Of a stretch of DNA of 41,076 bases, positions 14,434 through 30,130 are shown one piece after another. The translations under genes and the position numbers were made by a program. The first letter of the stretch is position 1; every line of letters begins with the position of its first letter. The notes beneath the pieces are model-generated. The model was not told the origin of the DNA and did not search any database. It saw only the letters and a list, made by a program, of their open reading frames with translations. This DNA is from Deltaproteobacteria bacterium. GTDB lineage: Bacteria > Desulfobacterota > Syntrophobacteria > BM002. Location: contig JAJDNT010000216.1 of NCBI GenBank assembly GCA_022340515.1, forward strand, positions 1-41,076, written 5' to 3'.

Positions 14434-15234
14434 ATGGTTAATTACGATCTAAAGTCGTTGTTGGAAGAGTTGAGGGAAAAGAGGCCTCTGGTCCACAACA
14501 TAACAAACTACGTGGTCATGAACTTCACTGCCAATACCCTTCTTGCCATGGGAGCTTCGCCGGTTATGGCTCACGCTGTCGACGAGGTGGAGGAGATGGT
14601 TTCCCTCGCCGAAGCATTAGTAATAAACATCGGGACTCTCTCGAAGCAATGGATTGAATCAATGTTCACGGCTGGGAAACGAGCAAACGAAATAGGGTTG
14701 CCGGTTATTCTGGATCCGGTAGGATCTGGGGCCACCTCTTTTCGAACTGAGACTTTCAGGAGTCTGGTAAAAGAACTTACACTGAGCGTGGTGCGGGGAA
14801 ATGCTTCAGAGATCCTCTCCATCGGTTCTGATTATGTAAGAACTAGAGGAGTGGAAACGGTCCATGGAGCAGAAGAGGCTCTCGAGACTGCAAGGACGGC
14901 GGCCAAGGAGATCGACTCGGTTGCCGCCATCACGGGTCCAGTGGACCTAGTCACCGACGGCGCAAGAGTCATTCGCTGTTATAACGGCCACCCCCTTCTC
15001 GGTTATGTGACTGGCACCGGTTGCGCTGCAACGGCAGTAATTGCAGCCTTCAACAGCATAACAAGCGACTCCCTTGAAGCTGCAGCAGCTGGCCTGGCTT
15101 TTTTCGGCCTGGCAGGCGAAATTGCTGGGGCCAGGACAAATTCTCCTGGGTCCTTCCTGGTGGCATTGCTCGATGCACTTTACCAGATTACCCCTGAGGA
15201 GTTCCAAGAGAAGGCAAGATTAGAAGAGGGTTAA
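14434..15234 (+). CDS. thiM: Hydroxyethylthiazole kinase
   Basis: PLVHNITNYVVMNFTANTLLAMGASPVMAHA, VILDPVGSGAT, GNASEI, VTGTGC. Confidence 0.95.
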   Translation: MVNYDLKSLLEELREKRPLVHNITNYVVMNFTANTLLAMGASPVMAHAVDEVEEMVSLAEALVINIGTLSKQWIESMFTAGKRANEIGLPVILDPVGSGATSFRTETFRSLVKELTLSVVRGNASEILSIGSDYVRTRGVETVHGAEEALETARTAAKEIDSVAAITGPVDLVTDGARVIRCYNGHPLLGYVTGTGCAATAVIAAFNSITSDSLEAAAAGLAFFGLAGEIAGARTNSPGSFLVALLDALYQITPEEFQEKARLEEG

Positions 15235-15297
15235 CCCGGACGGGTTAAAAGAGAATTGTAAACGTGAAAGGTGAAATGATAAGTGTTGAAATGCGAG

Positions 15298-15681
15298 TTA
15301 GTCTATGAAAGCACCTTTTTCGACTTCTAATTTTAGGTAGCCCGAGGACAAAGAAGAAATGAAATCCCGGTCCGCCATGGACATCTCGGTGAATCGCACA
15401 CCCATTCCGCAAGGGGGATCATCTTCGTACGATCCGTATGGATAGGACCATGTCACCTCGGCAGGGATATCTAAGTAGCGTTGATTAGGAAACATGATGA
15501 GCACCCGAATCTTTTCTTGAGCCGGAAGTGGTCGATCACAGAAAATGAATGCTCCCAGAGGACTAATATTCCTTGTTTCTGCAATCAGGGCACCGCGGTC
15601 ACTAATTATGACAACGGGCCAGCTACCTTTACTTCTTGGATATTTTCGCGTCTCAGTCCACTCCGTGGTATCCAAAGTCAT
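15298..15681 (-). CDS. PilZ domain protein
   Basis: ETRKYPRSKGSWPVVI... ARTRNISPLGAF-like region, GMGVRFTEMS. Confidence 0.75.
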   Translation of the reverse strand: MTLDTTEWTETRKYPRSKGSWPVVIISDRGALIAETRNISPLGAFIFCDRPLPAQEKIRVLIMFPNQRYLDIPAEVTWSYPYGSYEDDPPCGMGVRFTEMSMADRDFISSLSSGYLKLEVEKGAFID

Positions 15682-15855
15682 ACCTCCATTGATGTAGCTT
15701 TATAGCCCCACCCCGGTGCCCGAGTACAATCAAATATCTGCAAGGTAGTGTAATAACGACAATTATGAAGTGTAAAGCCCTGTTCGCTTGCTGCAGGCAA
15801 ATCTGACCCAAGAAAGGAAAATCTGCAACTACTATGCCAAGGTACTGGGTGGAGT

Positions 15856-16497
15856 TCATGCTTTCAGTTTTACTGATAGTGTGAAGACTTCTTTCGATAC
15901 TTTTTCACTCAGTCTCGTCAACGCTGTCACCTGCTCCTTCCCCAGCGTTTCAAGAGCGTGATAATTGAAAGGATCAAGGGCCTTGCCTATGTTTCGACCA
16001 AAGTGCTGTGCCGCTGTACCGCTTTTTCCCCCCTGGCCTTCAGAGTATTCTTTTAGTCGGGTCATAGGGTTTAAAGAGTCGCCATGCTTGATTTTAATTT
16101 CAGGAGGTGGAGAAACTAAAACTATCTCCCTCAGCTTGGTCATACCGAGATCGTTACAGAGTTTTATAAGATGTTGTGCAAGTCTGGCATTATAATAACG
16201 CACAAGTTCATAATTTACTTTTTTTAGAATAAGTCTTTTTGTCGCTATATATCTGGGTGATATTTTAGTTGTAAGAAATGCGGTAAAACAAAGTGCTTCA
16301 AAAAGAAGTCTTAACTCTACTCCTTCAGTAATTTTGCGGGGTCTTATGGATCGGTTTTTTGCTTCTGAACTCTCACAAAATTTGATGTAAGAATCGGAGA
16401 TGTCCCTGACCACATTGGCACTTTCAAGATTGCGATCAAGTGAAAAAACATTCGCTTTAGCCTTTACATCTAATTCTGCTTCTGAATATATAGCCAT
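15856..16497 (-). CDS. Hypothetical protein
   Basis: 213-aa ORF, no family recognised. Confidence 0.55.
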   Translation of the reverse strand: MAIYSEAELDVKAKANVFSLDRNLESANVVRDISDSYIKFCESSEAKNRSIRPRKITEGVELRLLFEALCFTAFLTTKISPRYIATKRLILKKVNYELVRYYNARLAQHLIKLCNDLGMTKLREIVLVSPPPEIKIKHGDSLNPMTRLKEYSEGQGGKSGTAAQHFGRNIGKALDPFNYHALETLGKEQVTALTRLSEKVSKEVFTLSVKLKA

Positions 16498-16724
16498 ATC
16501 GAGTTTTTCAAAGTTAACTTAGGGGATTTTTCGCTCAACTTACAAAAACACGTAGTAGATTGCAAGTAAAACCGAGCCCCAGGGTTTTGTTAATGAATGG
16601 AATATATGGCATTAAACGCAAAGAGCAGAACCGTGAAGGAAGGAGGAAGTGCTGGAAACCTATCTTCGAAAGATCGGGAAACGATCAAAACCATGGAAGG
16701 CTTGCGGAGGTCACAGATATTGCA

Positions 16725-17372
16725 ATGTATGATAAAAAGAAAGTGGATTACTCACTGTATCTGGTGACAGACAGAGCTCTCTCCCTTGGGCGAAGCAACC
16801 TTGCGGTCATAAAGGCAGCAGTTGAAGGGGGGGCAACTCTCGTTCAGCTTAGAGAAAAAGAGGCAACTACCAGAGAGTTTTACCAAGAGGGTTTAAAGAT
16901 AAGAGCTTATTTGAAAGGCATAAATATTCCTTTAGTCATAAATGACCGAATCGATATAGCTCTTGCCTTGGATGCTGAAGGCGTCCATCTGGGCCAGGGG
17001 GACATGCCTGTTGACCTAGCCCGAAAAATACTCGGGCCGAAAAAGATCATTGGTGCTTCAGTATTCACTTTGGAGGAGGCTAAAATAGCAGAGAAATTGG
17101 GAGCCGACTATCTAGGCTTGTCGCCCATATTCGTAACAGAGACCAAACCAGAGTTGGTCCGGCAGATAGGTATAGAGGGTATTCCCCAGTTCAAGGCGGC
17201 GGTGCAAATTCCTGTTGTGGGTATTGGTTCAATAAGTGAATCCAACGCCTACGAGGCGGTCAAGGCTGGGTTGGACGGGGTTGCCGTGGTCTCTGCTATT
17301 TGTTCGCAGGAAGATCCGAGAGCAGCAGCAACTGAGATCAAAAAAGAAGTGCTGAGGGCAAAACGCTCATAG
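16725..17372 (+). CDS. thiE: Thiamine-phosphate synthase
   Basis: YLVTDRALSLGR, GGATLVQLREKEATTREFY, INDRIDIALALDAEGVHLGQGDMP. Start placed at MYDKKK. Confidence 0.95.
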   Translation: MYDKKKVDYSLYLVTDRALSLGRSNLAVIKAAVEGGATLVQLREKEATTREFYQEGLKIRAYLKGINIPLVINDRIDIALALDAEGVHLGQGDMPVDLARKILGPKKIIGASVFTLEEAKIAEKLGADYLGLSPIFVTETKPELVRQIGIEGIPQFKAAVQIPVVGIGSISESNAYEAVKAGLDGVAVVSAICSQEDPRAAATEIKKEVLRAKRS

Positions 17373-17586
17373 CATTTTAGAGTCACAAAGCCGCGCCAGA
17401 TCTAGGTTGGTGAACATGAATATACTTGATAGTGGATGGTACACGCTCTATAAACACACAGAAATTTCATTGTACATCAAAAGCTTGTGATCTAGCGTCG
17501 AGCATCCAGCATCTAGCATCCAGAATCTAGCATGGTTGGGCTAAAGAGAGCCAGATTCCCGAGAGCGGGAAAAGCGGGGAAAAGAA

Positions 17587-18582
17587 ATGAGACTGAAAGA
17601 CATTGGTGAAATTGGCTTTATTAAAAGGATCGAAAGCGGCTGTCTTGTTAGAGACAAAAAGGTTATCCGAGGAATTGGAGATGATTGCTGTGTGTTCAAA
17701 GCCTCAGGGAGAATGGCCATCCTGCTGACAACCGACATGCTAGTGGAGAAGATACACTTTCTACTGGGCTCCATATCGCCCTACGAACTTGGGAGAAAGT
17801 CGCTGGCGGTCAACTTGTCCGACATCGCCGCAATGGGCGGGACTCCAAGGGAGGCGGTGATCTCCATTGCCATCCCCGACACGGTAGATCTAGCCATCTT
17901 AGATGGTGTTTACGATGGTATGAAATCGATGGCAAAAGAATTTGAGGTGAATATTTTAGGGGGTGATACCACCTCATCTCCAGAACACTTGGTGATCAAT
18001 GTTGCCCTCGTAGGTGAAGCTGCAGAGGATGAGATTCTCTATAGATCCGGAGCCGGAGAGGGTGAGGTGATTTTTCTTACCGGTCCCGTGGGTTCTTCGG
18101 CTGCAGGTCTTGACCTGATCCTGAAGGGAAGAGAGATCCAGGGATGGGAGGCCCTGATAGAAGCCCATCATAATCCTTATCCCCACATAGAGGCGGGGCG
18201 CATAATTGCAAGCACCAAGAAGGCCAACTCCTTGATTGATGTGTCAGACGGTGTTGCCGCAGACCTAGGACACATCTGCACAGAATCAGGGTTAGGTGCG
18301 ATCCTTGAAGAAAGAATGATCCCCACCACCGAGACGTTCAGGGAGTACTGTAAGAGATTCCATGAAGACTCAAATCATCTATCTCTTCATGTAGGTGAGG
18401 ATTACGTTCTTTTGGGGACAGCGGTTGCAGGGGCGGCCAACGAGCTTCGAGCAGCTCTGGAGTCCGAGGGATTAGAATTCCACCAGATAGGGCAAATGGT
18501 TGCCGAACCCGGTTTGAGATTCAGAACCAGGGAAAATTCCCTAGAGTCAATGGAAACAAGCGGCTGGGATCATTTTAGATAG
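17587..18582 (+). CDS. thiL: Thiamine-monophosphate kinase
   Basis: IGDDCCVF, LTTDMLVEKIHF, LAVNLSDIAAMGGTPREAVIS, GGDTTSSP. Confidence 0.95.
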   Translation: MRLKDIGEIGFIKRIESGCLVRDKKVIRGIGDDCCVFKASGRMAILLTTDMLVEKIHFLLGSISPYELGRKSLAVNLSDIAAMGGTPREAVISIAIPDTVDLAILDGVYDGMKSMAKEFEVNILGGDTTSSPEHLVINVALVGEAAEDEILYRSGAGEGEVIFLTGPVGSSAAGLDLILKGREIQGWEALIEAHHNPYPHIEAGRIIASTKKANSLIDVSDGVAADLGHICTESGLGAILEERMIPTTETFREYCKRFHEDSNHLSLHVGEDYVLLGTAVAGAANELRAALESEGLEFHQIGQMVAEPGLRFRTRENSLESMETSGWDHFR

Positions 18583-28428: not shown

Positions 28429-28583
28429 GGGTTTCCATATTAGAGACAGTGTTTCCCCTTTCATATTTTGCCCAGTTTGTGATAACCTTCTCCGGATCGG
28501 AGAGTATCTGGAAAGGGGTAAAGGTAGCCGGTGTCGCTGATGGAGCGCGTTTTGCCAATTCTTTAATCTCACAGGGGGGAAAC

Positions 28584-29198
28584 TTGGCAAGACTGTTGGG
28601 CTATCTGGCGGTTGTGGGACTTTTCCTGCTGCCCATGCCAGTGATAGGGGCTAGTTCTTCTGCTGAAGCGGCTTCTAAAGATTCGTCCCCCGAAGATAGT
28701 TTGTATGCAAGGCAGGTGGAGAAGTCGGACGACCGTGAGGTAAATGACAAAATGCTCGACCTCTCCTATGATAAGATGCCGGATTCTTCCGAAAAGTCGG
28801 ATTCCCGCGAAATGTCTTTAATGGTTGCCGTATTTGCACGGCACGTTGACCAATCGGACGACCCCAATGAGAACCTCAGGATGGTCGTCGCCTCCTATGA
28901 TAATTATGTGGTATCTAGATATGTAAACACCTGGGACGACCCAACATACTTTGGTGGCAAGAGATTCAGCACCAATAAGTACGCTATCAAGGAAAGCCAG
29001 AATTTTTTTTACCAGGGAAATGTGTATGCAGGGATTCTCTATGGGTACGGGAACAACGCGGCTATAAACGTAAAAGGGCTTGCGCCTGCGGTGTTCCCCA
29101 CCGTTGGAGTCGGATATAAAACCACCTCCCTGGAGATGGGGTATATACCTACGCCATCTGGAGGCGTGTTTTTGAGTTTGTTCAAATACGAGTTCTGA
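28584..29198 (+). CDS. Putative outer-membrane beta-barrel-like secreted protein
   Basis: Likely TTG start before LARLLGYLAVVGLFLLPMPVIGASS with GGGGGG upstream; aromatic C-terminus SLFKYEF. ORF track starts at 28449. Confidence 0.5.
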   Translation: MARLLGYLAVVGLFLLPMPVIGASSSAEAASKDSSPEDSLYARQVEKSDDREVNDKMLDLSYDKMPDSSEKSDSREMSLMVAVFARHVDQSDDPNENLRMVVASYDNYVVSRYVNTWDDPTYFGGKRFSTNKYAIKESQNFFYQGNVYAGILYGYGNNAAINVKGLAPAVFPTVGVGYKTTSLEMGYIPTPSGGVFLSLFKYEF

Positions 29199-29272: not shown

Positions 29273-30130
29273 ATGAAAAATCGATCCGCTGTTTTGTTGC
29301 TAATAGCGTTAGTTTTCTTGGCCTTGTCCTGCCCGGTCAACGGAGCGGTGGAAGGGGATGTGAAAAAAACCTTGAATCTGGAAAGTCCCCCTCTTGATTT
29401 GGCTGCTTCTCTCAACGGAAAGTATTTATATGTGTTAACCGACCAAGGAAACATTCTCATCTACTCGGTAGATGGCAAACTAGAGGACAAGGTTTCTGTG
29501 GGAAACCAGGTGGATTCCATTAAAGTTGGACCGTGGGAAGATGTAATTCTTCTTGTCAGCAAAAAGAATAAGCAAGTTCAAATACTGCTCCTAGACTTTA
29601 TTAAAGATATCGACCTTTCCAATGCTCCTTTCAAAGGGCCGGCAGATGCTCCGGTAGTAATAGCAGTTTTCAGCGATTTTCAGTGACCTTACTGTGCAAG
29701 GCTTTCGCCTCTACTCGAACAGGTGTTCGAGACCTACCCGAAGGTGGTCAAACTGGCCATAAAAAACTTTCCTCTTCCAAATCACAAATTTGCCCGGCAG
29801 GCTGCTGTGGCTGCACTGGCAGCTGACAGGCAAGGTAAGTTTTGGGAATTTCACGATGAGCTTTACAAGAATTACAGCCGGCTAAGTGAAGAAAAGATTC
29901 AAGAAATTGCCCAGCAATTGGGTTTGGATACGGCCAAGTTGGATCAAGATATGAAAAGCCCCGAAATAAATGCAATAGTAGAGAAAGATTTAAGGGACGG
30001 GCAAGAAGCTGGAGTGCGAGGAATCCCAACTATCTTTATTAATGGAAGGCTGTTGAGGGATAGAAGTTTCGCCGGATTCCAGGCTGCAATAGAAAAAGAA
30101 CTGGCTGAAAAAGGCAAGAAAAAAGAATAG
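29273..30130 (+). CDS. DsbA-family thioredoxin-fold selenoprotein (Sec at UGA 29684..29686, UPYC motif)
   Basis: The two ORFs 29273..29686 and 29723..30130 are in one frame joined by a single TGA: ...VVIAVFSDFQ-U-PYCARLSPLLEQVFETYPKVVKLAIKNFPLP... GIPTIFINGR. The Cys homologue motif is FSDFQCPYC. Confidence 0.88.
29714..29731 (+). promoter_or_regulatory. Candidate bacterial SECIS element
   Basis: CTCGAAC-AGGT-GTTCGAG perfect 7-bp stem; the loop GG lies about 36 nt after the UGA. Confidence 0.7.

Follow-up and report, generated by a model that had tools for sequence, protein, structure and literature searches.

The locus at 29273-30130 on the plus strand of the window (the whole 41,076-nucleotide stretch of DNA analyzed here) very probably encodes a selenoprotein of the DsbG/DsbA-like redox class. 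Its coding sequence is interrupted once, by a UGA codon at 29684-29686 that, judging from the comparisons below, is almost certainly a site of selenocysteine (Sec) insertion. The product would be a single secreted, periplasmic protein in which a signal peptide and two beta-propeller blades precede a thioredoxin-fold domain with a UPYC active site. The selenoprotein interpretation, first put forward in a sequence-only reading of this DNA, is now strongly supported by the selenium machinery of the genome, the codons that orthologs carry at the Sec site, and a hairpin that tracks the Sec state.

One reading frame across a UGA codon

The complete coding sequence (29273-30130, plus strand) specifies 285 residues and ends in a TAG stop at 30128-30130. 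An AAGGA resembling a ribosome-binding site is visible by eye upstream of the ATG at 29273. The sole interruption of the frame is TGA at codon 138, which directly follows FSDFQ and occupies the first residue of the UPYC active-site motif, just where the sequence-only reading had placed a single TGA between two open reading frames. That reading also anticipated that automated callers would split the gene, and gene finding with table 11 indeed yields two pieces, 29273-29686 and a GTG-started piece at 29723-30130. The second is spurious: its GTG (29723-29725) overlaps the loop of the SECIS hairpin treated in a later section, together with the first base of the stem, and is therefore not a credible start, in keeping with the earlier view of it as artificial.

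To place this codon among its relatives, we relied on an ortholog set compiled by searching 56 genomes of the class and scanning GTDB contigs once. This provided 42 distinct relatives with the N-terminal domain, window excluded, from metagenome-assembled genomes (MAGs) of Desulfobacterota or “Deltaproteobacteria.” Read directly, the codon at the Sec site was TGA in 36, TGC in five, and TGT in one, so the in-frame UGA stands where homologues have Cys. Sec and Cys were exchanged at least four times on a tree of 40 relatives. Distant relatives that have the DsbA domain only carry TGC or TGT, except for two paralogs with a UPAC motif.

These data bear on the possibility that the UGA is a true stop, whether through a pseudogene, a sequencing error, or two genes with reinitiation at GTG 29723. 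The split made by table 11 is what such a stop would produce. However, TGA recurs in the 36 orthologs, which come from many separate assemblies, and neither TAA, TAG, nor a codon for any other residue occurs at this position in any of the 42. Each of the six Cys orthologs is one unbroken frame of the same extent, and the alignment with Cys homologues that had been suggested as a check runs the full length of the protein; two separate half-proteins consequently make no sense. Against the closest ortholog, Ka is 0.069 and Ks 0.587 upstream of the UGA (Ka/Ks about 0.12), and Ka is 0.076 and Ks 0.466 downstream (Ka/Ks 0.16). Because these low ratios are similar, both halves are under similar purifying selection. 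The hairpin, moreover, is kept only alongside the UGA. The ortholog comparison thus refutes a true stop, and we regard it as extremely improbable.

The window's own genome holds a second selenoprotein of the family (L111:2457-3119, minus strand; G000:C115), with the motif FEUPAC and without propeller blades. Short paralogs resembling it, with one TGA each, occur in six further genomes (G005, G006, G008, G009, G011, and G012). The Sec gene has a second copy in L091 (CP070746.1, about 312 kb); this copy enters a stretch of N after its UGA. Other relatives, family f5 (L044-L059; e.g., L046:535-2037), are proteins of about 500 residues. In L046, the member that was scanned, a Thioredoxin_4 domain with Cys lies at the C-terminus, in addition to a weak VKOR-like part and a SurA_N-like part; by its sequence, a protein of this type could possibly be a self-contained oxidase-chaperone fusion. 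No relative was found in the viral contigs searched, and plasmid matches were all below 60% identity (26-39% among the matches listed).

Selenium machinery of the genome

The genome to which the window belongs comprises 3.83 Mb in 342 contigs and is 87.5% complete; it contains a tRNA-Sec with anticodon TCA (75 bits), SelB (388 bits), SelA (612 bits), and SelD (376 bits). Absence of this machinery had been named as what would count against a selenoprotein, and all four components are there. Across the class, 33 genomes were checked for SelB, and 30 have it. The SelD of the window's genome is itself Sec-containing, with an in-frame UGA in KSGUACK (L112, contig position about 20281; G000:C204).

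A frame left open under TGA = Trp would look identical to the one seen here, and decoding of the UGA as Trp or Cys, through a variant code or by Sec-independent leaky readthrough, must be considered as well. This is hard to reconcile with a genome that encodes tRNA-Sec, SelA, SelB, and SelD, with a UGA site that alternates with Cys codons only, and with a hairpin that covaries. In addition, a neighboring gene stops at a TGA (29196-29198). Decoding as Trp or Cys is therefore highly implausible, and we continue with Sec.

A SECIS hairpin that follows the Sec state

Downstream of the UGA lies the hairpin CTCGAAC-AGGT-GTTCGAG (29714-29731, plus strand), with a 7-bp stem and an AGGU loop at 29721-29724. 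Bacterial SECIS (bSECIS) elements are described in a review as having a stem of 4-16 bp, a loop of 3-9 nt with G in one of its first two positions, a spacing of 16-37 nt, and a minimum free energy (MFE) of at most -7.5 kcal/mol (PMC13188914). The hairpin lies within all of these limits, its UGA-to-loop distance of 34 nt being near the long end of the range; its MFE is -8.3 kcal/mol for the 18 nt alone and -14.2 kcal/mol for 50 nt. The stretch 29684-29760, where the sequence-only reading had proposed to look for such an element, thus holds one, and it tracks the Sec or Cys state across orthologs.

At least six of the seven pairs are present at the exact offset in 39/39 UGA sequences (36 orthologs, two paralogs, and the window) and in 0/6 Cys orthologs. 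The UPAC paralog in the window's genome has the same hairpin design, with 7/7 pairs at the same distance from its UGA. Under synonymous codon resampling, 4.2 SECIS pairs would be expected, while 6.9 are observed. Three pairs show compensatory changes that keep the pairing (C-G/U-G/U-A; G-C/A-U; G-C/C-G). The shuffle controls that accompany this comparison can be inflated by kinship among the sequences, and more reliance is placed on synonymous resampling and on the Cys orthologs as a control. Against synonymous shuffles, the mean z of this distal hairpin is -4.7 in Sec orthologs and -0.35 in Cys orthologs. By a mechanism that the comparisons support very well, the hairpin would recruit SelB with Sec-tRNA(UCA), which would insert Sec at UGA 29684-29686 and so create the UPYC site in the DsbG/DsbA-type thioredoxin fold.

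A smaller, proximal hairpin, AGGC-TTTC-GCCT (29699-29710, plus strand), lies between the UGA and the SECIS hairpin. Its register varies by clade: it occurs in most Sec sequences and in another register in the Desulfocapsa relatives. It is paired in 54% of cells and is mildly favored in Cys orthologs too (mean z of -1.6, against -2.3 in Sec orthologs, relative to synonymous shuffles), and as a required element it was rejected on these grounds. Together, the two hairpins possibly form a stacked element.

Domain architecture

Residues 1-25 (29273-29347, plus strand) form a likely signal peptide, with a predicted helix at residues 4-17 and a probable signal peptidase I cut near NGA-VEG, between A and V. 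Cys20 was rejected as a sign of a lipoprotein: its column is not conserved among orthologs, an argument against a lipobox. After cleavage, the only Cys left in the protein is that of the Sec-Cys pair.

Two beta-propeller blades occupy residues 26-116 (29348-29620, plus strand), as indicated by profile matches, a structure model, and Foldseek. The family profile of this N-terminal domain matches propellers in the PDB (1l0q, 2.5e-22) and a two-blade fragment (6r5x, 6e-4). The domain was modeled as a single chain of seven strands with a pLDDT of 90. With this model, Foldseek placed v13Bagel2, 6r5x, Cake2, and Ph1500 near the top, at weak E-values (best 1.1e-3, to 3e-3).

The DsbA/DsbG-type thioredoxin domain follows at residues 120-275 (29630-30097, plus strand). 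It exceeds the gathering cut-offs of both PF13462 (98.6 bits against 23.2) and PF01323 (80.8 bits against 25.6), has an xPxC-type site and a cis-Pro, and both Pfam matches recur in 40/40 members, among which Cys141 and the cis-Pro, Pro252, are invariant. The sequence-only reading had called the protein DsbA-like with FSDFQ-U-PYC: the motif stands, but Thioredoxin_4 (DsbG-like), rather than DSBA, is the top match in Pfam. The model of this domain has a mean pLDDT of 93, and its nearest structure by Foldseek is 3gyk (E 1e-12), followed by BdbD, alpha-DsbA2, and ScsC.

Reductase/isomerase or oxidase

CPYC- and CPHC-type motifs are known from oxidases and isomerases alike. Consequently, we considered the partners available in the genomes and the residues around the active site. 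The window's genome encodes a full DsbD of 669 residues (DsbD_N, transmembrane, and thioredoxin domains; G000:C157), the partner of a DsbC/DsbG-type isomerase system. DsbB (PF02600) was found in 0/15 genomes carrying the gene or a relative, and VKOR (PF07884) was absent from 14 of these 15, with the single match below cut-off; these counts come from a window genome that is 87.5% complete and from relatives that are mostly incomplete MAGs, and distant oxidases would escape the search. Within the same limits, the DsbB or VKOR partner of a classical DsbA oxidase system was thus not seen. Since DsbD is present and DsbB and VKOR were not found, a reductase/isomerase is favored over a DsbA-type oxidase. 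The residue before the cis-Pro points the same way. Thr precedes the cis-Pro in DsbC and DsbG and does so in 24/40 members here (the window's protein has Ile), which, together with the trimeric isomerase relatives ScsC and alpha-DsbA2, adds to the case. On this sequence-level evidence, the protein is probably a thiol-disulfide reductase or isomerase that DsbD would keep reduced.

An oxidase of the DsbA kind, which would introduce disulfides and be reoxidized by an unknown partner or a small oxidant, has the DsbA-type fold in its favor, as well as the PH found between the redox residues in 11/40 members, as in the CPHC of DsbA. However, the missing DsbB and VKOR matches, the full DsbD, and the Thr before the cis-Pro in most members all argue against it, and we consider an oxidase rather unlikely.

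The N-terminal blades as a proposed oligomerization module

In fold, the N-terminal domain resembles two-blade propellers: the engineered 6R5X tetramer, the designed Bagel2 and Cake2, and the natural homohexamer Ph1500. The likeness to 6r5x extends to the sequence profile. To our knowledge, no two-blade oligomeric propeller is fused to a thioredoxin-fold enzyme. Engineered two-blade fragments form tetrameric, eight-blade rings (PMC6805158), and Ph1500 is, by its PDB title, a homohexamer with a 12-blade ring. Since these fragments form rings, the N-terminal domain is proposed as an oligomerizer. The two-blade domains of several chains would close a propeller of 3 x 2, 4 x 2, or 6 x 2 blades, and the closed propeller would present several active sites together. 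DsbC and DsbG are dimeric and ScsC is trimeric; they also bring several active sites together, by other means than blades. From these analogies, oligomerization through the blades is a proposal that could fall either way.

The blades may instead be an arm with which a monomer binds substrate or metal. The confident model as a single chain would suit such an arm, and the paralog without blades indicates that the catalytic domain can do without them. The ring closure of the engineered fragments and of Ph1500 weighs against it, and we hold a monomeric arm to be possible but somewhat doubtful. Returning to the ring-closing domain, we tentatively suggest, with less assurance than for oligomerization itself, that a clade of Desulfobacterota selenoproteins uses a natural two-blade, ring-closing fragment to build an oligomeric, DsbD-fed Sec disulfide isomerase in bacteria without the usual oxidizing branch of DsbB or VKOR.

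Relation to known selenoproteins

The sequence-only reading called DsbA/DsbG-like selenoproteins known; DsbA-like and DsbG-like ones with UxxC were reported in 2005-2006 (PMC1088965, PMC1794560) and are listed in later work (PMC9312934, PMC13188914). The protein shares the Thioredoxin_4 fold with UxxC with the DsbG-like selenoprotein (COG1651/PF13462) and with NCBIfam NF041057, the Rcas_1661 family (seleno)lipoprotein. NF041057 is the only close NCBIfam selenoprotein model, and none reaches its cut-off: the protein scores 73.5 bits against an equivalog cut-off of 190, only residues 118-275 align, and, unlike NF041057, it has no conserved lipobox Cys and has propeller blades of its own at the N-terminus. 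For want of a model above cut-off, automatic splitting of the gene is likely.

The protein also resembles DsbA-like selenoprotein form 1 (PF01323, UxxC; COG2761 in PMC1088965) in having UxxC in a DSBA-domain protein, and form 1 was reported in several Deltaproteobacteria (PMC1794560). It differs in that PF01323 is its second-best match, although form 1 was compared by description and some of its published members may belong here. The solved structures nearest to the catalytic domain in fold include ScsC and Wolbachia alpha-DsbA2 (PDB 6nen, 4xvw, 6eez), which are homotrimeric isomerases (PMC5524982, PMC6450060). Both use Cys, unlike the Sec seen here. We know of no propeller blades in either.

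Our literature search found no paper mentioning a Dsb selenoprotein with a fused propeller. The kind of protein is thus known, while the branch with a two-blade N-terminus and a conserved SECIS hairpin seems undescribed; single orthologs (e.g., that of Olavius, L067) may possibly have been listed earlier.

Gene neighborhood

No conserved neighbor that could be a redox partner is common across the family, and the neighborhood does not decide the function. In the window's genus, the gene order is GGDEF, a protein without a Pfam match, this selenoprotein gene, a chalcone isomerase-like gene, and YdjM; in the Desulfocapsa relatives, this selenoprotein gene is followed by phoH and ybeY/pdxJ. The upstream protein (249 residues, 28449-29198) has no Pfam match and a sub-threshold C-terminal match to PagP, stays beside the selenoprotein gene in near relatives, and is possibly an outer-membrane beta-barrel. 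Elsewhere in the window, 14434-18582 holds a thiamine gene group with a ThiM-like kinase, a ThiE-like synthase, and an AIRS-fold protein, probably ThiL. A scan of the window at Rfam gathering thresholds returned nothing, and ARAGORN found no tRNA in it.

Implications

In many Desulfobacterota genomes, automatic annotation will probably go on splitting members of this family into two false genes; the SECIS hairpin is regular enough that a new selenoprotein model could be seeded from it. If the functional interpretation is true, anaerobes without DsbB or VKOR would be using selenium to handle disulfides in the periplasm. Likewise, if the blades do close a ring, the family would provide a natural propeller assembled from two-blade pieces, an arrangement known mostly from work on engineered proteins.
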